A DNA stretch of 64,000 nt, taken from assembly GCF_002896875.1 (NCBI RefSeq), contig NZ_CP023278.1, positions 1,426,001 through 1,490,000 of the forward strand. Reading direction: 5' to 3'. The notes under the pieces were generated by a model. That model had not been told where the DNA came from. It was given only the letters and a program-made list of their open reading frames with translations, and did not search any database. This stretch comes from Nostoc sp. CENA543 (GTDB lineage: Bacteria > Cyanobacteriota > Cyanobacteriia > Cyanobacteriales > Nostocaceae). Of this stretch, positions 22,779 through 32,623 are shown piece after piece. Each line of letters opens with the position of its first letter. Position 1 is the stretch's first letter. Position numbers and translations under genes: made by a program.

Positions 22779-22810
22779 GGCGATGCCTACGGCGGGCTGC
22801 GCCAACGCAC
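22779..22810 (+). repeat. Dispersed repeat GCGATGCCTACGGCGGGCTGC, left copy
   Basis: GGCGATGCCTACGGCGGG followed by CTGCGCCAACGCAC abuts the stop codon of the BrnT partner gene. A second copy at 23419-23452 lies at the other end of the pair in the same orientation. This sequence type is a common dispersed repeat in cyanobacteria. Confidence 0.8.
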
Positions 22811-23106
22811 TAACAATTGGTTTGAGAACGAATTTCTTGTATAATATTAGAAATTTCTGCTTCTGATTCAATATGTCGTGCCAGCACTTGAGCAGTAGCC
22901 TCTAGCAAGCGGTTAGAAAATAACTTAGCTAAATCTTGGCGTAACCCTTGCCCAATGTAAAATTTAAGTAATGCCTCACAGGACATATCTCGACTGTCTG
23001 CTATCTTTTTCAGAGATTCTAAAGTATCTTTGGGTATTTCTAGGGATACTGTTTCATTTGGGCGTGGGTGCAGTTGTAAGATAAATTCCTCTTCAGGATT
23101 GTTCAT
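22810..23106 (-). CDS. Antitoxin of BrnT-type pair
   Basis: 98 residues from ATG 23106, which has GAGAG upstream; a longer frame to 23166 only overlaps brnT further. The segment VSLEIPKDTLESLKKIADSRDMSCEALLKFYIGQGLRQD resembles the ribbon-helix-helix/BrnA-type DNA-binding region of BrnT partners. It overlaps the toxin gene by 14 bases, the normal toxin-first order for BrnT systems. It probably represses the pair and neutralises BrnT. Confidence 0.75.
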   Translation of the reverse strand: MNNPEEEFILQLHPRPNETVSLEIPKDTLESLKKIADSRDMSCEALLKFYIGQGLRQDLAKLFSNRLLEATAQVLARHIESEAEISNIIQEIRSQTNC

Positions 23107-23398
23107 AAAGTTTTCTCTCTGTACGAGTCGCAGGACAAGCAGAAATGATGCGAGTTCGTAATCCACGTTCTACATAGACTACAAGCAAAAAACGTTGTTC
23201 AAGGGAGTACCCAATGATAAAAGCGCGTTGTTCGCTGCTAGAAGCATTGATAGGGTTTGCATCACCAGTTTGGTAAAAAGGATCGAAAAAAACCTCGGTG
23301 GCTTCTTCAAAGGTAACACCATGTTTTTCAATATTGCTCCGCGCTTTGTTGCTATCCCACTCAAATTCAACACCTTGTAGGCGATAAACAATATCCAT
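23093..23398 (-). CDS. brnT: BrnT family toxin
   Basis: 101 residues with the BrnT pattern: FEWDSNKARSNIEKHGVTFEEATEVFFDP at the start, then IGYSLEQRFLLVVYVERGLRTRIISACPATRTERKLYE. BrnT is a ribonuclease toxin with a RelE-like fold that slows translation under stress. All these family segments are present, so it looks intact. The pair is bracketed by two layers of direct repeats. Confidence 0.88.
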   Translation of the reverse strand: MDIVYRLQGVEFEWDSNKARSNIEKHGVTFEEATEVFFDPFYQTGDANPINASSSEQRAFIIGYSLEQRFLLVVYVERGLRTRIISACPATRTERKLYEQS

Positions 23399-24045: not shown

Positions 24046-26976
24046 TTACCCTTGTATTAATGCTTTAAACTGTTCATCATTTCTAATACCATCAAAATCG
24101 GGGTTGCCTTTTGCTTCTTGACGGCATCGAGAAGCATTGAGATGTATTGCTTGTTGCAAATTTTCAATTGCTAGCTCAATGTTTCCTTGCAAAGCGTAAC
24201 AGCAAGCTTTGCCATAATGACCACTTTCATCGTTAGGTTTTAATTCTAGTGCTTTCTCACAACTGACTAATGCTTCCTGATAGCGTCCTGCACGAGCTAG
24301 GACAATACCTTGATTAGCCCACCATAGAGGATCGTCTGGTTGAAGTTTGACAGCTTCATTTACATTTGCCAGTGCTTCATCATAACGACCTAATAAACTT
24401 AGGACTATACCCTTAACACTCAAAAAACCTGCTTCATTCGGTGTAATCTTTAACGCCTGATTACAGCTAGTCAATGCTTCCTCATAACGCTCTAAGTTCC
24501 TCAGTGCATTACTTCGATTTATCCATGCTTCGGGGAATTCATCGTTAATAGCTATGGCTTTGTCACAGCTAGTCAATGCTTCTTCATAACGATCTAAGTT
24601 CCTCAGTGCATTACCTCGATTTATCCATACTTCGGGGAAGTCATCTTTAATTGCTATGGCTTTGTCACAGCTAGTCAATGCTTCTTCATAACGCTCTAAC
24701 TTCCTCAGAGCATTACTTCGATTTATCCATGCTTCGAGGAAGTCATCTTTAATTGCTATGGCTTTGTCATAGCTAGCTAATGCTTCTTCATAACGCTCTA
24801 ACTTCCCTAGTGCATTACCTCGGTTGAACCATACTTCGGGGAAGTCATCTTTAATTGCTATGGCTTTGTCATAGCTAGCTAATGCTTCTTCGTGACGCTC
24901 TAAATTTCCCAGTACATTACCTCGGTTGAACAATGCTTCTAGTAAGTCGTCCTTAATTGCTAAAGCTTTGTCATAGTTAGGCAAAGCCTCTTCATATTCT
25001 TTTAATCTATACAGCCAATTACCGACATCTAAAAACAGACGACTGCTGAATTTAGGATAAGTATCAGTAGCAATAAGTTCAGCTTGTTCAATTGCCCGCA
25101 TTAGCAAATCTTTTCGCTGAATAGGGTTGCTTCTTAGGGATTTATACAACATTCCTGCATACTTACCCAGCCCATCTTTTAACAAGTCAACTTGAGTGAA
25201 ACCAGGTCTTAATGCTGCCTCTATTTCTTCTTTAGAGGGGCCAGTCCCGGTTTCATACTGAATATCATATTGAGATGGATCATCCGCTAACATTACCCAA
25301 CTAAAGATAAATCCCAATTTTATGCTTTTCAACAACTTCTCAGTCGAATCTGGTAAGAGTCGATAATTCTCTACTGCTGCTTCCGCAACAACTGCTGCAA
25401 AAGGAATCATCACTACTTCCAGTTGCTTTAAATAGCGAGAAGCAAACAAATGGGATATGAATTGACGCTGACCTTCATCTCTTCTTGCAAAAAGAGCATG
25501 ATAGAGAAATTCAGCAGTGTGCTGTCGCCAATCAGCGTTTTCGTATTTTTCTGGCTCAGGACTATATTGGGTAACTTCTTGGTTCGCTTGTTGCTCAAAA
25601 TATATAGCTAGCAATTCATGGATTGCACGAAATTGTGTTTTATCATCTTGACAGAATGAAAGTCGAAAAACATTACGGGCCACATCATCCAAGCGATAGC
25701 GACCTTGAACAAACTCAACAAAATCACACTTTATTAGCCAATCAAAACAGTTGAAATTAGCACAAGCACCAGTTTCAAAGTCTATTCCTTGTTTTTGCAT
25801 TAAATACTCAATTAACGACCGATAAAACCAACGGCAACAAGCTGCTATTTGGACTATTTCCTTTTGCTTTGTACTCAATCCTTGCAGTAGTAGATTAGTA
25901 ATTTCTTGGTTGCCACGAGAAAAATCAATCTCTCTATTGGCTTCCTTCTCTCGTTTAATCCATTGAAGATAATAAGGTAAACCTTTAGTTGCTTTATATA
26001 TTTTCTGAATATCACCAGATTTGGTAATGCCGATATGCTGAAGATATTCCTTTGTCTGTTCTTTATTGAATTCATCTAGTCGTTGTTCATAAATCAAATC
26101 CCTATCCTGCTGAAATTTACGCCAACTTTCCTTCTCAAGTAGAGAACGCCGTCCTGCTACCACAAGGCGAACAGGATAAGATTTTAAAGTCGTATCTTCT
26201 AATAAATACTGCCAAAGCCAAGTGTCAATGTCTGGTGGTGCTTTTTCATAGGTATCTAAAATCAACACAGTGGAGTGATTATGCTTTTGAGCTTTCTGTA
26301 TCAAACCCTGAGCAAAGGCATGAGTTAACTTAGGTATGGGTTCGAGCATTAATTCCTGAAGCTCTTTGTCATTTTTCGTTGCTGGATGCTGTTGCAATAG
26401 TTCTTGCATACGCTCTTTACTTGATTTAATCGCCTGTGGTGCATCCGATAACATTCCTCCAGCTTTGACCACAGCATCCAGACCTAAACTTAATGCTGTT
26501 CCAGGATCTCCCAAGTAGGCTGCACCTGTTGCTAGCAGTGTTCCTGTTCCTAGTTCCAGCCAATCTTTAACCGTGTTTTGTTGTTCTGTATCAACTGATT
26601 TACCTCGAACTGGTTCAGTTTTAAGCTTATAAAAAGTCTCATAATATTGCTCATAAAGTGACGTAAACGGATCGGGTTTATGTGATAAATTTCTTAGGGA
26701 AAGTCCAGTAGATTTTGGTAATAGCTCATAAAGCTTCTCCATTAACTTCAGTGGCGTTTGGATATCTGGTGTAAGGCCAAAAGATACTGCGGCAAAGTCA
26801 GCTTGCGACTCGTGCATCTCTTTTAGCTTTTTGATGAGGGTAGTTTTGCCAACTCCTCCAAACCCGTAAACCTGAAACAGCAGTGGGTTAGATTCTGGAG
26901 ATTCTAATGCTTTAGCAAATTTAGCTAAAAAGTCCTTGGCCTGCTGGCGATAAATGTAAGGTATCTGGTTGCTCAT
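24046..26976 (-). CDS. STAND-type P-loop ATPase with C-terminal TPR repeats
   Basis: 976 residues. Walker A GFGGVGKTT is at 38-46 and a Walker B-like STVLILDTYE near residue 237. The central helical region resembles the winged-helix/arm part of STAND ATPases (NB-ARC/NACHT-like). From about residue 640 there are about nine tetratricopeptide repeats; five or six central units of 34 residues (motif RYEEALTSCDKAIAIKDDF) are nearly identical. STAND proteins act as ligand-triggered switches in signalling, and some in anti-phage defence. No separate effector domain is visible at the N-terminus. No cotranscribed partner. Confidence 0.85.
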   Translation of the reverse strand: MSNQIPYIYRQQAKDFLAKFAKALESPESNPLLFQVYGFGGVGKTTLIKKLKEMHESQADFAAVSFGLTPDIQTPLKLMEKLYELLPKSTGLSLRNLSHKPDPFTSLYEQYYETFYKLKTEPVRGKSVDTEQQNTVKDWLELGTGTLLATGAAYLGDPGTALSLGLDAVVKAGGMLSDAPQAIKSSKERMQELLQQHPATKNDKELQELMLEPIPKLTHAFAQGLIQKAQKHNHSTVLILDTYEKAPPDIDTWLWQYLLEDTTLKSYPVRLVVAGRRSLLEKESWRKFQQDRDLIYEQRLDEFNKEQTKEYLQHIGITKSGDIQKIYKATKGLPYYLQWIKREKEANREIDFSRGNQEITNLLLQGLSTKQKEIVQIAACCRWFYRSLIEYLMQKQGIDFETGACANFNCFDWLIKCDFVEFVQGRYRLDDVARNVFRLSFCQDDKTQFRAIHELLAIYFEQQANQEVTQYSPEPEKYENADWRQHTAEFLYHALFARRDEGQRQFISHLFASRYLKQLEVVMIPFAAVVAEAAVENYRLLPDSTEKLLKSIKLGFIFSWVMLADDPSQYDIQYETGTGPSKEEIEAALRPGFTQVDLLKDGLGKYAGMLYKSLRSNPIQRKDLLMRAIEQAELIATDTYPKFSSRLFLDVGNWLYRLKEYEEALPNYDKALAIKDDLLEALFNRGNVLGNLERHEEALASYDKAIAIKDDFPEVWFNRGNALGKLERYEEALASYDKAIAIKDDFLEAWINRSNALRKLERYEEALTSCDKAIAIKDDFPEVWINRGNALRNLDRYEEALTSCDKAIAINDEFPEAWINRSNALRNLERYEEALTSCNQALKITPNEAGFLSVKGIVLSLLGRYDEALANVNEAVKLQPDDPLWWANQGIVLARAGRYQEALVSCEKALELKPNDESGHYGKACCYALQGNIELAIENLQQAIHLNASRCRQEAKGNPDFDGIRNDEQFKALIQG
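24480..24990 (-). repeat. Tandem 102-bp units coding near-identical TPRs
   Basis: Within the STAND ATPase gene, successive 102-base units share long runs of identity, for instance GCTTCTTCATAACGCTC and GCTATGGCTTTGTCA repeat five times. The similarity at DNA level shows recent amplification or gene conversion among the repeats. Confidence 0.85.
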
Positions 26977-27241: not shown

Positions 27242-28635
27242 ATGCTGCTTACTATCACCACGACTTACTCCCCAGCGACGGAGTTAGGCTACTTACTCCA
27301 TAAACACCCAGAGCGTTGTCAGTCCTTTGCTTTGAGTTTTGGACAGGCACACGTATTTTACCCAGAAGCAAATAGCGATCGCTGTACGGCAGCGTTGTTA
27401 TTAGATGTTGACCCGGTAAAATTGGTACGGGGTAGGAGTGCGAGTTTAGAACAGTATGTCAATGATCGCCCTTATGTGGCATCATCTTTTATGAGTGTTG
27501 CGATCGCACAAGTATTCAGCACGGCTTTGGGTGGACGCAGTAAAGATAGACCAGAATTAGCCCAAACTCCCATACCTTTATTAGTCAAAATATCTGTATT
27601 ACCCTGTCGTGGTGGTGAAGGTTTCCTGCGGGACTTGTTTGAGCCTTTGGGTTACACTGTCAAAGCTACTGGTCATCTTTTAGATGAAAAATTCCCAGAG
27701 TGGGGAGAGAGTAAATATTTCACTGTGGAATTACAAAATACTCTCACAGTCAGTGATTTGTTAAGTCATCTCTATGTTTTAATTCCTGTACTTGATGATG
27801 ATAAACACTATTGGGTAGGGGAAGAAGAAATCGAAAAATTACTGCGTCATGGTGAGGGTTGGTTGTCGCAACATCCAGCTAAGGAACAAATCACTAGACG
27901 TTATTTGAAACGTCAGCACCGTTTGACGCGTCAAGCATTAGCACAGTTAGTAGAGGAAGATAATCCTGATCCTGATAGTACAGAAGCAACTCACGCTGAG
28001 GAAGAGGCGGCGGTAGAAAAGCCGATTAGTTTAAATCAGCAGCGTATGAATGCGGTAGTTACTGCTTTGAAAGAAAGTAATTCTCGGCGTGTAATTGACT
28101 TAGGTTGTGGTCAAGGGAATTTATTAAAATTGCTCATTAAAGATAGCTTTTTTGAGCAAGTTACAGGTGTGGATGTTTCCTATAGATCGTTAGAAATTGC
28201 TCAAGAACGATTAGATAGGTTAAGACTTCCTCGGAATCAATGGGAAAGATTACAACTGATTCAGAGTGCGTTGACTTATCAAGATAAACGCTTTGCTGGT
28301 TACGATGCTGCGACTGTCATTGAGGTGATTGAGCATTTAGTTTAGATTTACCGCGTTTGGGGTCATTTGAGCGAGTCTTGTTTGAGTTCGCTAAACCCAA
28401 AACGGTGATAGTAACAACGCCGAATATTGAATATAATGTGAAATTTGAAAATCTGCCGGCGGGGAAATTGCGACATAAAGACCACCGTTTTGAATGGACG
28501 CGATCGCAGTTTCAAGCTTGGGCAAATAAAATAGTAGAAAAGTTTGGTTATGCTGTGGAGTTGCAAGCGATAGGGGAGGAAGATACAGAAGTCGGTTCAC
28601 CTACACAAATGGCAGTTTTTAGTTACAATAATTAA
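27242..28635 (+). pseudogene. hen1: 3' terminal RNA ribose 2'-O-methyltransferase Hen1, frameshifted
   Basis: Residues 1-240 match the bacterial Hen1 N-terminal domain (MLLTITTTYSPATELGYLL, GGEGFLRDLFEPLGY), and from about 265 a methyltransferase domain begins with VIDLGCGQGNLL. The metal-binding motif EVIEH is read just before a stop at 28345. The rest continues in another frame from about 28346 to 28635 (GSFERVLFEFAKPKTVIVTTPN, then DHRFEWTRSQF). The break is explained by a 5-bp tandem duplication TTTAG-TTTAG at 28336-28345; removing one copy restores EVIEHLDLPRLGSFERV. Hen1 methylates the 2'-OH of the 3' end of damaged RNA before Pnkp ligation. As written, the metal site is split and the enzyme is inactive unless frameshifting occurs. 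Confidence 0.9.
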
Positions 28636-28649
28636 TCTATTTATGAGGA

Positions 28650-29099
28650 ATGGAAGTAGTTATTTTTATTGGCATTCAAGGCGCAGGTAAATCGACTTTC
28701 TATTGTCACTATTTTTTTCACACCCACATTCGCATTAATCTAGATATGCTCAAAACTCGTCATCGAGAGCAGATTTTTTTACACGCTTGTTTGGAGAGTA
28801 AACAATCTTTTGTTGTCGATAATACTAATCCGACTGTAGAAGAAAGACAGCGTTATATTATCCCAGCTAAGGCGCAAGGTTTTCGAGTTGTGGGGTATTA
28901 TTTTCAAACTGAATTAGAGGAGTGTAAAAAAAGAAATAGTCAAAGACCTGCTAAACAAGTTGTGCCGCTTGTGGGGTTATTAGGGACGTATAAAAAACTG
29001 GTTTTACCAAATTGGGAAGAGGGTTTTGATGCAATTTATAAGGTTAAACCAGATTTAAATTATTCATTTATTATTGAGGAATGGCAGCGTGAAATTTGA
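28650..29099 (+). CDS. P-loop kinase-like ATP-binding protein of the RNA-repair cluster
   Basis: 149 residues. Walker A GIQGAGKST is at residues 8-16, followed by INLDMLKTRHR and VVDNTNPTVEERQRYI, the pattern of small polynucleotide-kinase-like (AAA_33/Pnkp kinase) proteins. The C-terminal half has YFQTELEECKKRNSQRP, which fits the lid and arginine region. It lies 14 bases after hen1 and overlaps the Thg1-like gene by 11 bases, so it is part of the same operon. It may phosphorylate RNA 5' ends or be a smaller paralogue of the Pnkp kinase domain; this is inference. Confidence 0.8.
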   Translation: MEVVIFIGIQGAGKSTFYCHYFFHTHIRINLDMLKTRHREQIFLHACLESKQSFVVDNTNPTVEERQRYIIPAKAQGFRVVGYYFQTELEECKKRNSQRPAKQVVPLVGLLGTYKKLVLPNWEEGFDAIYKVKPDLNYSFIIEEWQREI

Positions 29100-29850
29100 T
29101 GAATTAGATAGTAGAATGCGGGTGTTTGAAACAGCCCACGATCATTGTGTATTACCTGGAATTTATATAGTTGCTAGATTAGATGGACGTAGTTTTACTC
29201 GTCTGACTAAAGAAGTACATAAGTTTGAAGCTCCTTACGATGTCAGATTTCGAGATATGTTGCTGACAACAATTGAGCATTTAATGAATTGCGGTATTGA
29301 TATTCAGTATGCCTATACTCAAAGTGATGAAATTTCCTTACTGTTTGCATATCATGAAGCTACATTCAATCGTAAGGTGAGAAAATTAAACTCAGTTTTA
29401 GCAGGAGAAGCTAGCGCAAAATTTTCTTTACTATTAGGTGATATGGGTTGTTTTGATTGTCGCATTTCACAACTTCCCAATGTGGAAGAAGTGGTAAATT
29501 ATTTTCGTTGGCGACACGAAGATGCTCACAGAAATGCTTTGAATGCTCATTGCTATTGGTGTCTACGGCGTGATGGTCAAAGCGCAACGCAAGCCACTAG
29601 TATGATGAAAGGGTTATCTGTGGCTGATAAAAATGAAATGTTATTCCAACATGGGATTAATTTTAATCAGCTTCCTAATTGGCAAAAACGGGGTGTGGGT
29701 CTTTATTGGGAAGAATATCAAAAAGAAGGATTTAATCCTATCACTGGTGAAAGTGTTCCTGTGTTACGGCGACGCATTCGGCGGGATTTAGATTTACCGA
29801 TGAAGGATGAATATAGTCAGTTTGTTGCTGAGTTATTACATAATCTATAG
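29089..29850 (+). CDS. Thg1-like 3'-5' RNA polymerase (tRNA-His guanylyltransferase family)
   Basis: 253 residues from GTG 29089, preferred because GAGGA lies 8 bases upstream; a TTG at 29074 would add five residues. The catalytic pattern of Thg1 is clear: RLDGRSFTRLTK with metal ligand D32, and TQSDEISLLF with D80-E81. The region RNALNAHCYW replaces the HINN motif of eukaryotic enzymes, as in bacterial Thg1-like proteins, which repair 5'-truncated tRNAs by adding nucleotides in the 3'-5' direction. Location between a kinase-like gene and pnkp strongly suggests a role in RNA end repair. Length and motifs look intact. Confidence 0.92.
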   Translation: MKFDELDSRMRVFETAHDHCVLPGIYIVARLDGRSFTRLTKEVHKFEAPYDVRFRDMLLTTIEHLMNCGIDIQYAYTQSDEISLLFAYHEATFNRKVRKLNSVLAGEASAKFSLLLGDMGCFDCRISQLPNVEEVVNYFRWRHEDAHRNALNAHCYWCLRRDGQSATQATSMMKGLSVADKNEMLFQHGINFNQLPNWQKRGVGLYWEEYQKEGFNPITGESVPVLRRRIRRDLDLPMKDEYSQFVAELLHNL

Positions 29851-29928
29851 TGGTTCATTTAGTTGAATTGTATAGTTAATATTACTCACGCAAAGGCGCA
29901 AAGGCGCAGAGAAAGATAAAAAGAGAAA

Positions 29929-29963
29929 CTAATGACTATTGACTAATGACTATTGACTATTAA
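29929..29963 (+). repeat. Heptamer repeat TAATGACTATTGACT
   Basis: Alternating AATGACT and ATTGACT units fill the 35 bases just before the pnkp start codon. The same family is seen at 20251-20291. Confidence 0.8.
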
Positions 29964-29965
29964 TT

Positions 29966-32623
29966 ATGAAAATTACTATTCCTGAGTTATCTTTGGTTGT
30001 TTTGATTGGTGCTTCTGGCGCGGGAAAATCGACTTTCGCACGTCACCATTTCCAGAGTTTTGAGGTGTTGTCTTCTGATTTTTGTCGGGGGTTGGTTTCT
30101 AATGATGAAAATAATCAGTCGGCTTCTGGGGATGCTTTTGATGTGCTGCACTATATTGCAGCTAAAAGATTAGCCGCAGGTAAGTTGACTGTGATTGATG
30201 CTACTAATGTGCAGGCGGAAGACCGTAAGGCTTTACTGCAAATGGCGAAACAATATCATTGTTTTGCTGTGGCGATAGTTTTTGATTTACCAGAAGCATT
30301 ATGTCATGAAAGAAATCAAAAAAGAAGCGATCGCAATTTCGGTTCTCATGTCGTGCGTCGTCACACTCAAATGTTACGGCGTTCTCTGCACAGTCTAGAA
30401 AAAGAGGGTTTCCGTTATGTCTATACTCTAAAATCTGTGGAGGAAATTGCATCTGTTGAAATCGAAATTCAACCTCTATGGAATAACAAAAAACACGAAC
30501 ACGGCCCCTTTGATATCATCGGCGATATTCACGGTTGCTGTGATGAATTAGAAGCATTACTACAACAGTTAGGCTACGTGAGGAGGCAGGAGGGCAGGGA
30601 GCAGGGGAGACAAGGGAGACAAGGAAGCACAGAAGATTTTACCCCAATGCCCGATGCCCAATGCCCAATGCCCAATGTCCCATCCTTTTGGAATTTCCCC
30701 ACCTATTACCACCCAGAAGGACGTAAAGCTGTGTTTCTTGGTGATTTAGTAGACCGTGGCCCCCGCATTTTGGATACAGTCAAGTTAGTGCGGAATATGG
30801 TTGCAGCCGGGACAGGCTTTTGTGTTTGTGGTAATCATGAACACAAGTTTTTGCGAAAATTACGGGGTAAAAATGTCAAGATAACTCACGGGTTACAGCA
30901 AAGTATTGATGAAATGGAAGCGTTACCTGATGGGGTGCGTGAACCTTTCAGCCAAGAACTCGCAGGATTTTTAGATTCTCTCATCAGTCATTATGTCCTG
31001 GATGACGGACACTTGGTGGTGGCTCACGCCGGGATGAAAGCGGAAATGCAAGGACGCGGTTCTGGTGCGGTGCGGGAATTTGCTATGTATGGAGAAACGA
31101 CGGGTGAGATTGATGAGTTTGGCTTGCCTGTGCGTTACAATTGGGCGGCAGATTATCGGGGTGAGGCTTTGGTAGTTTACGGTCATACCCCTGTCCCGGA
31201 AGCGGAATGGTTGAATAATACGATTGATATTGATACAGGCTGTGTTTATGGTGGGAAATTAACCGCCTTACGCTATCCCGAAAAAGAATTGGTGAGTGTA
31301 CCGGCGGCGCGTGTTTACCGTGAACCAACGAAACCATTAGGCAATAAAAGTATTACTCGGACAGCACAACAAGAATTAGATGATGTACTGAATATTGAGG
31401 ATGTCTTGGGTAAGCGGATTATTAATACTAAACTCCAGCCCAATGTTACCATCCGGGCAGAAAATGCGATCGCAGCTTTAGAAATCATGAGTCGGTTTGC
31501 AGCTAACCCCAAATGGCTGATTTACCTACCGCCTACCATGTCCCCACCTGAGACATCTTCCATCCCTGGTTACTTGGAACACCCCACCCAAGCTTTTACC
31601 TACTACCAAACCCAAGGAATTACAGAGGTAGTCTGTGAAGAAAAACACATGGGTTCACGGGTAATTGCGGTGATTTGTCGTGATATCGCCGCCACCGAAA
31701 AAAGATTTGGGGTGGTGGATGAAGGTATAGGAATTTGCTACACCCGCACCGGCAGACGCTTTTTTGATGACCCAGCATTAGAAGCGCAAGTCTTAGCAAG
31801 GGTGAATCATGCTTTAACTGCCAGTAACTTTTGGTCAGAGTTTAATACAGATTGGGTGTGTTTAGATTGTGAATTAATGCCTTGGTCAGCTAAGGCGCAA
31901 GGTTTGCTAAGGGGACAATATGCACCTGTGGGAGTTGCATCACACCTCGCTTTAAATGATGCTGTAACTTTATTAGAACAGGCTAATACGCGCAATTTAG
32001 ATGTCACTACCCTACTCACTCACTACCAACAACGCGCAGAGATGGCGAGTCAATACGTCGCTGCTTACCGTCGCTATTGTTGGCAAGTTGATGATATTGC
32101 AGATTTAAAACTTGCACCCTTCCACATTTTAGCCACCGAGGGACAAGTTCACACCGATAAAGACCATCGTTGGCACATGGAACAAGCCGCCAAAATCTCC
32201 CACTCAGACCCGGCTTTACTTCTAGCAACTAATTACAAAGTCATCGATTTAACTGACCCCAGTAGCCAAGCTGAGGGGGTGCATTGGTGGTCAGAAATGA
32301 CACAAGCAGGCGGTGAGGGGATGGTAGTAAAACCTATGCAGTTTATTGTCAAAGGTAGTCGGGGTATTGTCCAGCCTGCGGTGAAGTGTCGTGGACAGGA
32401 ATATCTGCGAATTATCTACGGGCCTGAATATTCAGCCGTAGATAATTTACAACGTCTGCGTCAACGGGGTTTATCTTTGAAGCGTTCCCTAGCCATGCGC
32501 GAATTTGCTTTGGGTGTGGAAGCATTGGAGAGATTTGTGAGTCATGCACCTTTACGTCGTGTCCATGAATGTGTGTTTGGGATTCTAGCTTTGGAGAGTG
32601 AACCAATAGACCCCAGATTATAA
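29966..32623 (+). CDS. pnkp: Polynucleotide kinase-phosphatase/ligase Pnkp
   Basis: 885 residues in the three-domain layout of bacterial Pnkp. The kinase domain has GASGAGKST at 15-23. The 2',3' phosphatase domain is a metallophosphoesterase with GDIHG 186-190, GDLVDRG 259-265 and GNHEH 289-293. The C-terminal adenylyltransferase domain has EEKHMGSR at 558-565, with K560 as the AMP-accepting lysine. Pnkp repairs RNA ends and, with Hen1, seals cut RNA. Residues about 206-241, between two phosphatase motifs, are a repeat-derived insert (see separate entry). The gene is 115 bases after the Thg1-like gene and is followed by a strong hairpin. Confidence 0.95.
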   Translation: MKITIPELSLVVLIGASGAGKSTFARHHFQSFEVLSSDFCRGLVSNDENNQSASGDAFDVLHYIAAKRLAAGKLTVIDATNVQAEDRKALLQMAKQYHCFAVAIVFDLPEALCHERNQKRSDRNFGSHVVRRHTQMLRRSLHSLEKEGFRYVYTLKSVEEIASVEIEIQPLWNNKKHEHGPFDIIGDIHGCCDELEALLQQLGYVRRQEGREQGRQGRQGSTEDFTPMPDAQCPMPNVPSFWNFPTYYHPEGRKAVFLGDLVDRGPRILDTVKLVRNMVAAGTGFCVCGNHEHKFLRKLRGKNVKITHGLQQSIDEMEALPDGVREPFSQELAGFLDSLISHYVLDDGHLVVAHAGMKAEMQGRGSGAVREFAMYGETTGEIDEFGLPVRYNWAADYRGEALVVYGHTPVPEAEWLNNTIDIDTGCVYGGKLTALRYPEKELVSVPAARVYREPTKPLGNKSITRTAQQELDDVLNIEDVLGKRIINTKLQPNVTIRAENAIAALEIMSRFAANPKWLIYLPPTMSPPETSSIPGYLEHPTQAFTYYQTQGITEVVCEEKHMGSRVIAVICRDIAATEKRFGVVDEGIGICYTRTGRRFFDDPALEAQVLARVNHALTASNFWSEFNTDWVCLDCELMPWSAKAQGLLRGQYAPVGVASHLALNDAVTLLEQANTRNLDVTTLLTHYQQRAEMASQYVAAYRRYCWQVDDIADLKLAPFHILATEGQVHTDKDHRWHMEQAAKISHSDPALLLATNYKVIDLTDPSSQAEGVHWWSEMTQAGGEGMVVKPMQFIVKGSRGIVQPAVKCRGQEYLRIIYGPEYSAVDNLQRLRQRGLSLKRSLAMREFALGVEALERFVSHAPLRRVHECVFGILALESEPIDPRL
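30581..30690 (+). repeat. In-frame short-repeat insert inside pnkp
   Basis: GGGAGCAGGGGAGACAAGGG-like units and four ATGCCCA-type heptamers lie inside the phosphatase domain coding region, giving the low-complexity peptide GREQGRQGRQG and PMPDAQCPMPN. The frame is preserved. The same motifs are otherwise intergenic in this genome. Confidence 0.85.

Follow-up and report, generated by a model that had tools for sequence, protein, structure and literature searches.

Introduction

Do the four adjoining genes for Hen1, a small kinase-like protein (kin), a Thg1-like 3'-5' polymerase and Pnkp in Nostoc sp. CENA543 make up a single RNA repair pathway, or do two separable activities share one locus? 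The cluster lies in a stretch of 64,000 nucleotides (nt) of contig NZ_CP023278.1 (assembly GCF_002896875.1, positions 1,426,001 to 1,490,000 of the forward strand), here called the window. The initial annotation, made from the letters of the window alone, had read it as one route in which Thg1 rebuilds a 5' end, Pnkp seals the break and Hen1 marks the joint. The data can be accounted for by a single fill-and-seal pathway, and also by two separate activities housed in one repair island. The reading we favour with moderate confidence is that of a Pnkp/Hen1 repair cassette accompanied by a separable kin-thg1 module, in which a 5'-phosphate made by kin would let Thg1 rebuild RNA ends while Pnkp seals separately; one fill-then-seal route is possible.

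Part of this arrangement has been in print since 2010. Anantharaman, Iyer and Aravind (PMC2904730; like all papers given here by PMC number, cited for parts of its text) described a polynucleotide kinase as the most persistent neighbour of bacterial Thg1, accompanied in some neighbourhoods by MACRO or RNA ligase genes, proposed a role in RNA repair and suggested that the kinase makes the 5'-phosphate for Thg1. The pairing of kinase and thg1 analysed here is the same, as is the presence of an RNA ligase at some loci. Further, restoration of lost nucleotides before ligation has already been predicted for the nucleotidyltransferase RlaP (PMC7824862), so that the expectation of a pathway "new or little described" was too strong, both for the neighbourhood and for end-filling ahead of sealing. 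The kin-thg1 pair itself is already known; what is new is its place in islands with Hen1/Pnkp, RlaP and HD-Pnk, the common 11-nt overlap and the counts. Hen1 has 0 occurrences in the part of PMC2904730 that we cite from, and a literature search for Thg1 with Hen1 or Pnkp found no linking paper; the 2016 review by Burroughs and Aravind was not covered by this search, and absence from print is not established.

Conservation of the kin-thg1 gene pair

Loci were collected by a Thg1-profile search of named genomes. The best 80 of at least 552 confirmed candidates were analysed, a sample biased toward window-like forms and including two instances of loci from the same contig (L048 with L023, L089 with L026). 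kin was called where a match of more than 100 bits lay at most 800 nt upstream of thg1 on the same strand. By this measure, kin precedes thg1 in 61 of these 80 loci. The two genes overlap by 4, 11 or 14 nt in 58 loci, and by exactly 11 nt in 48. The remaining three pairs differ: one has a distance of 36 nt, one a distance of 560 nt with an opposite-strand open reading frame (ORF) in between (L111), and in the third both matches fall within one ORF (L124). The pair spans ten named phyla (Cyanobacteriota 18, Planctomycetota 9, Pseudomonadota 9, Bacteroidota 6, Myxococcota 5, Bacillota 4, Chloroflexota 3, Acidobacteriota 2, Lentisphaerota 2 and Thermodesulfobacteriota 1, with two loci lacking a phylum name), and the 11-nt overlap is found in eight of these. 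Of the fetched loci, 10 of 13 cyanobacterial ones (the window excluded) and 11 of 17 planctomycete ones contain the pair as well.

The same association was seen from the side of the kinase. A kin profile run against 386 cyanobacterial genomes gave 12 full-length matches above 200 bits, 11 of them adjoining thg1. Two further matches of 137 and 133 bits, the former split over two frames, come from genomes without a Thg1 match, and all remaining matches stay below 60 bits. In addition, kin and Thg1 distances correlate across 76 loci (r 0.70; 0/1000 permutations). Judged from these comparisons, kin and thg1 form a conserved unit, in most loci with overlapping ends, that is separable from the Pnkp/Hen1 cassette.

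Identity of kin and of the Thg1-like protein

A profile built from 11 kin proteins matched mammalian PNKP (E 1e-18) and the kinase domain of C. thermocellum Pnkp (8e-12), followed by seryl-tRNA(Sec) kinase (2e-8) and T4 polynucleotide kinase (3e-6). The predicted model of kin (mean pLDDT, predicted local distance difference test, 91) gave a similar picture in a Foldseek search, where ranks 1 to 8 were taken by mammalian PNKP and ranks 9 to 11 by fungal kinases, then by the C. thermocellum and T4 polynucleotide kinases, with PFKFB and gluconate kinase as weaker fold matches. Because polynucleotide kinases rank first by sequence and by fold, we judge a 5'-OH polynucleotide kinase to be the natural reading of kin, and these profile and fold matches agree with the part in 5'-OH end healing that had been suggested for the small kinase. 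The weaker matches to seryl-tRNA(Sec) kinase and to the PFKFB and gluconate kinase folds would suit an enzyme other than an RNA kinase, with a small molecule or a charged tRNA as its substrate. We consider this very unlikely, given the ranking of the matches and the steady pairing of kin with an enzyme that uses 5'-phosphorylated RNA.

The Thg1-like protein of the window matches PF04446 with 112 bits as well as Thg1C (PF14413), and its catalytic residues D32, D80 and E81 are invariant in 11 of 11 aligned Thg1 rows. The mechanically called ORF begins at TTG 29074; GTG 29089 was chosen instead because the resulting MKFDELD start is common to the relatives, the nearest of which come from Nostoc sp. 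CMAA1605 and a Trichormus sp. Fold and catalytic residues are those of bacterial Thg1-like proteins such as BtTLP (PMC3701042; PDB 4kgk). In contrast, the Thg1 proteins of Bacillus plasmids are only about 31-32% identical to the window protein, which belongs to the kin-coupled group, and no match for kin was found on the Bacillus Thg1 plasmid records. One homologue without kin (L035, 7831-8616, minus strand) lacks the RLDGR motif and has lost the first catalytic Asp as read from translations, making it a possible inactive form.

Thg1-like enzymes activate 5'-monophosphorylated RNA with ATP as their first step (PMC3701042). Bacterial and archaeal members favour 5'-truncated tRNA, and the natural substrates of the bacterial proteins were left open by a review (PMC6471195). 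Supplying G-1 of tRNA-His is the founding function of the family in eukaryotes (PMC6471195). As the tRNA-His gene of this genome already encodes a G preceding position 1 together with C73 (positions assigned from the acceptor stem), an identity role of this kind is disfavoured and we attach next to no weight to it. It also appears highly improbable that Thg1 adenylylates 5' ends and feeds the resulting App-RNA to a ligase instead of adding nucleotides. Adenylylation is indeed the first Thg1 step (PMC3701042), and the 2010 paper (PMC2904730) brought up ligation via a 5' App, but the Pnkp ligase performs its own adenylylation, and the residues needed for polymerization do not vary in the 11 rows.

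Links of the pair to RNA repair genes

The window's Pnkp scores 1453 bits against TIGR04075 (cut-off 750) and contains kinase, metallophosphatase and PNKP_ligase domains. Neighbours were counted over all 80 loci, in stretches of differing length, some of them short. At least one of Hen1, Pnkp, RlaP and RNA ligase lies nearby in 19 of the 80. Hen1 is found nearby in 13, all within the 61 kin-thg1 loci, the other 48 of which show none. Pnkp is also present in 12 of the 13 Hen1-holding loci, where it extends over two ORFs in L058, and lies 4.3 kb (L064) and 2.3 kb (L076) downstream; the L051 stretch ends at the contig edge. Fragments were seen as well, namely a short Hen1 piece in L055 and a C-terminal Pnkp piece of 117 amino acids (aa) in L096.

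Gene order varies among these islands. Cyanobacteria show Hen1-kin-thg1-Pnkp, L069 and L073 show Hen1-RlaP-RlaP-kin-thg1-Pnkp (RlaP of L069 by Pfam), and L106 shows Hen1-kin-thg1-RlaP-Pnkp. In G573 and G630, kin-thg1 is located upstream of RNA ligase, HD-Pnk, Hen1 and Pnkp, where HD-Pnk is the name that we take to apply to the protein with HD and AAA_33 domains beside Pfam RNA_ligase. Pfam confirmed the ligase and HD-Pnk of G630 as well as the two RlaP genes after them; the G573 island was read from custom profiles, a Pnkp search and visual inspection. RNA ligase/HD-Pnk likewise follow kin-thg1 in L071 and L123, and Pseudobacteroides cellulosolvens carries kin-thg1-RNA ligase-Rnl2-HD-Pnk with Pnkp elsewhere in the genome. 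Such RNA ligase/HD-Pnk pairs resemble the Pnkp system in combining a kinase, end healing and a ligase, and differ from it in their ligase and phosphatase domains. On plasmids, a mobilizable replicon of Deinococcus taeanensis (L221, NZ_CP083459.1) encodes kin-thg1 and, further on, Hen1-RlaP-RlaP, and a Thiodictyon plasmid encodes thg1-RlaP. Conserved linkage of thg1 with pnkp, proposed as a check at the outset, is borne out by these neighbourhoods: the thg1-pnkp/hen1 linkage recurs in other cyanobacteria and in Planctomycetota.

Co-occurrence was also assessed for whole genomes. Among 386 cyanobacterial genomes, Thg1 is present in 13 and the Pnkp ligase in 16, with both in 8 compared with 0.54 expected (hypergeometric P 1.3e-9); the two are neighbours in 4 of these 8, in one case with a relic Pnkp. 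In Planctomycetota, a sample centred on a genome already known to carry the cassette, Thg1 is present in 18 and Pnkp in 23 of 246 genomes, with both in 8 compared with 1.7 expected (4e-5) and within about 12 kb of each other in 3 of the 8. In a quick tree of 119 Thg1 proteins, cassette forms are scattered in several places. A second quick tree of 85 rows, obtained by removing 34 rows (long branches, near-duplicates and some others), was used for approximately unbiased (AU) tests, which did not reject a single cassette clade (p 0.197, 0.101 and 0.604). Independent recruitment of Thg1 to the Pnkp link is possible on the scattered placement; independent origins are not claimed because the AU tests do not reject one clade.

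These distributions bear on the view that kin-thg1 and Pnkp/Hen1 are two RNA-related modules without shared function, carried jointly by mobile or horizontally transferred islands. The patchy presence of both Thg1 and Pnkp, the occurrence of the pair on a mobilizable plasmid and the AU tests, which allow a single clade so that one ancestral linkage may explain much, would all fit this view. However, the pair keeps company with different RNA repair partners (RlaP, RNA ligase, HD-Pnk, Hen1 and Pnkp) in different orders, and we regard mere co-travelling as improbable.

Several observations weigh against the reading favoured here, that of a kin-thg1 module working beside a Pnkp/Hen1 cassette. In 19 of the 80 loci kin is absent (one of these, L097, is truncated where the contig stops), and no kin above 100 bits was found in 42 of 43 viral loci; Thg1 of this kind can thus do without kin. 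One full-length kin stands alone, in G229. Most Thg1 loci show no Pnkp/Hen1, and Thg1 and Pnkp lie apart in five of the eight planctomycete and four of the eight cyanobacterial genomes that hold both, while the P values for co-occurrence ignore relatedness.

A phage origin of thg1 was considered and set aside: Thg1 matches were found in 118 of 50,697 phage records, none reaching 60% identity, and the viral loci are mostly without kin. One viral contig (L145) carries a weaker kinase-like ORF of 48 bits directly upstream of thg1. In two Bacillota loci, an ADP-ribosylglycohydrolase gene lies directly downstream of kin-thg1 (L096, 10752-11714, assigned by Pfam; L081, 2846-3814, assigned by similarity).

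The broken hen1 frame

Hen1 of the window is recognized by Hen1_L (397 bits) and by the equivalog TIGR04074, yet an intact single-ORF hen1 had to be rejected. The ORF ends at 28345, the end of the TIGR04074 match (profile positions 375-461 of 462) falls in a separate frame, and the relatives are in frame. The spacing at the junction is 17 nt in the window, whereas all 26 related rows that were measured have 12 nt and stay in frame; these represent 25 distinct contigs (L023 and L048 share one), with L044 extrapolated by five residues, and one of them, L040, has a frame break elsewhere in the gene. A complete Hen1 methyltransferase domain in a single frame is therefore lacking in the window, and a search of the genome for a second Hen1_L found none. 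Programmed frameshifting is thought unlikely, since all 26 related rows are in frame.

Using the two nearest relatives as references, L049 and L048 in this order, the ratio of nonsynonymous to synonymous substitution rates (dN/dS) was 0.03 and 0.07 for the first part of hen1 and 0.16 and 0.13 for the second. For comparison, values were 0.33 and 0.07 for thg1, 0.17 and 0.12 for kin, and 0.08 and 0.08 for pnkp. As far as these ratios tell, the break is a recent event or an assembly error. In another genome (G338), hen1 and pnkp are reduced to pieces while kin and thg1 remain open.

The open part of hen1 aligns with the solved portion in 4dqz/4drf (query 1-224) and also covers 114 residues of AvaHen1-like methyltransferase chains. 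The N-domain of Hen1 activates the Pnkp ligase (PMC4411300). Hen1 of the window would probably still be able to switch on the Pnkp ligase and would probably be hardly able to place the protective 2'-O-methyl mark. As the open part spans the whole ligase-activating N-domain, we infer sealing without a methyl mark in Nostoc sp. CENA543; marking of the joint by Hen1, as originally envisaged, is unlikely in this genome. In comparison with the Pnkp-Hen1 RNA repair system (PMC4411300; 4drf, 4dqz, 3jwh), the window shares the three-domain Pnkp, the Hen1 N-domain and the same-strand arrangement but has two extra genes between hen1 and pnkp and a methyltransferase domain that is out of frame.

One pathway or two activities

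In the two-activity reading, kin would phosphorylate 5'-OH ends of damaged tRNAs or other RNAs, and the Thg1-like protein would activate this 5'-phosphate with ATP and then add missing nucleotides in the 3'-to-5' direction against a paired strand. Internal breaks would be healed and sealed independently by Pnkp once the Hen1 N-domain has activated it. Metal-independent RNases leave ends that require a kinase before ligation (PMC7824862). kin more likely serves Thg1 than Pnkp, since Pnkp has a kinase domain of its own, the second kinase is tied to thg1, and most kin-thg1 stretches (48/61) are without Hen1.

In a single integrated pathway, kin and Thg1 would act after a break with loss of nucleotides and refill the 3' fragment at its 5' end, and Pnkp/Hen1 would then seal and mark the same molecule. 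We consider this rather unlikely, although the placement of kin-thg1 between hen1 and pnkp in cyanobacteria and in L069/L073, and within Rnl/HD-Pnk/Hen1/Pnkp islands, is what it would predict. The position of RlaP points in the same direction: in a cyanobacterium without Thg1 (L043, 6309-7121, plus strand), this protein, for which refilling before ligation was predicted (PMC7824862), sits between Hen1 and Pnkp in the slot that kin-thg1 occupies in the window. On the other hand, a break in the anticodon loop leaves Thg1-like enzymes without the paired template that they require, the module is mostly found apart from Pnkp, Hen1 is broken here, and the module brings its own kinase although Pnkp has one.

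RlaP (PF10127; PMC7824862) resembles Thg1 in its predicted task and differs from it in having a Pol-beta fold and in extending the other RNA end. RlaP, kin-thg1 and Hen1 are found together in five islands (L069, L073, L106, L217 and L221), four of which also contain Pnkp. It is conceivable, if doubtful, that RNA gaps are filled from either side in such islands and only then sealed, with RlaP, where it occurs, extending the 3' end, kin and Thg1 the 5' end, and either Pnkp/Hen1 or RNA ligase/HD-Pnk closing the gap. If true, such coupling of forward and reverse RNA synthesis to ligation would amount to a novel type of RNA gap repair. Of the two arms, the window cluster and its surroundings show only reverse synthesis: no RlaP was found there, and the RNA ligase/HD-Pnk pair is not present in the cluster.

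That a partner kinase accompanies these Thg1 proteins in ten named phyla, frequently at an identical overlap, suggests a 5'-OH end as the starting form of their natural substrate. Such a substrate would escape assays on pre-phosphorylated tRNA, as used in PMC3701042. Further, the Hen1, Pnkp, RlaP, RNA ligase and HD-Pnk neighbours place kin-thg1 in a response to RNA cleavage and name candidate partners, and the presence of the pair inside several kinds of RNA repair cluster makes its role easier to test.

Locus layout and neighbouring genes

The coordinates of the cluster are collected in Table 1. The four coding regions described in the initial annotation lie on one strand at the place given, with the difference that hen1 is not one open gene. 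All motifs named for the four proteins were found at their positions (Hen1 DLGCGQG at 286 and EVIEH at 361, kin GIQGAGKST at 8, Thg1 D32, D80 and E81, and Pnkp K560). Of the small or negative spacing proposed for the cluster, the negative spacing holds for kin and thg1 only; the remaining distances are 14 nt from the hen1 remainder to kin and 115 nt from thg1 to pnkp.

Table 1. Features of the hen1-kin-thg1-pnkp cluster (positions in the window)
Feature	Position	Strand	Remarks
hen1, 5' part	27242..28345	+	intact Hen1_L ligase-activating domain and first half of methyltransferase domain; frame stops after EVIEH
hen1 frame break	28340..28356	+	17 nt from codon 366 to downstream part; relatives 12 nt
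hen1, 3' part, other frame	28357..28635	+	remaining methyltransferase domain; TIGR04074 profile positions 375-461, 147 bits
kin, small 5'-OH polynucleotide-kinase-like protein, 149 aa	28650..29099	+	AAA_33, 58 bits
thg1-like 3'-5' polymerase, 253 aa from GTG	29089..29850	+	PF04446, PF14413
kin stop / thg1 start overlap, 11 nt	29089..29099	+	assumes GTG 29089 start
thg1-pnkp spacer, 115 nt, short direct repeats	29851..29965	no strand	
pnkp, 885 aa, open; kinase, phosphatase and ligase domains	29966..32623	+	K560

As a check on a single operon, a scan of the region for promoters and terminators returned 15 promoter-like and 5 terminator-like sites compared with 13.6 and 5.6 in shuffled sequences, which is no better than chance. 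A padloc defence scan of ten window proteins gave no match for kin, Thg1 or Pnkp, and the other proteins showed weak or generic matches only (Hen1 to mad2, an FtsH-like protein to IetA).

The cluster is flanked downstream by a P-type ATPase gene and upstream by a gene for a protein with an NTPase region and tetratricopeptide repeats (TPR), both on the minus strand. A likely toxin-antitoxin pair is located about 4 kb upstream of hen1 (22810-23398, minus strand). It consists of an ORF matching the BrnT ribonuclease toxin family with 86 bits (23093-23398, minus strand) and an ORF with a weak CopG antitoxin match of 22 bits, under the cut-off of 28 (22810-23166, minus strand). The TPR-NTPase gene (24046-26976, minus strand) is divergent from hen1 and encodes a protein of 976 aa with the NTPase region at its N-terminus followed by many TPR repeats. 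At the corresponding site of L023, whose contig ends there, lies a copy that is 82% identical over the first 311 residues.

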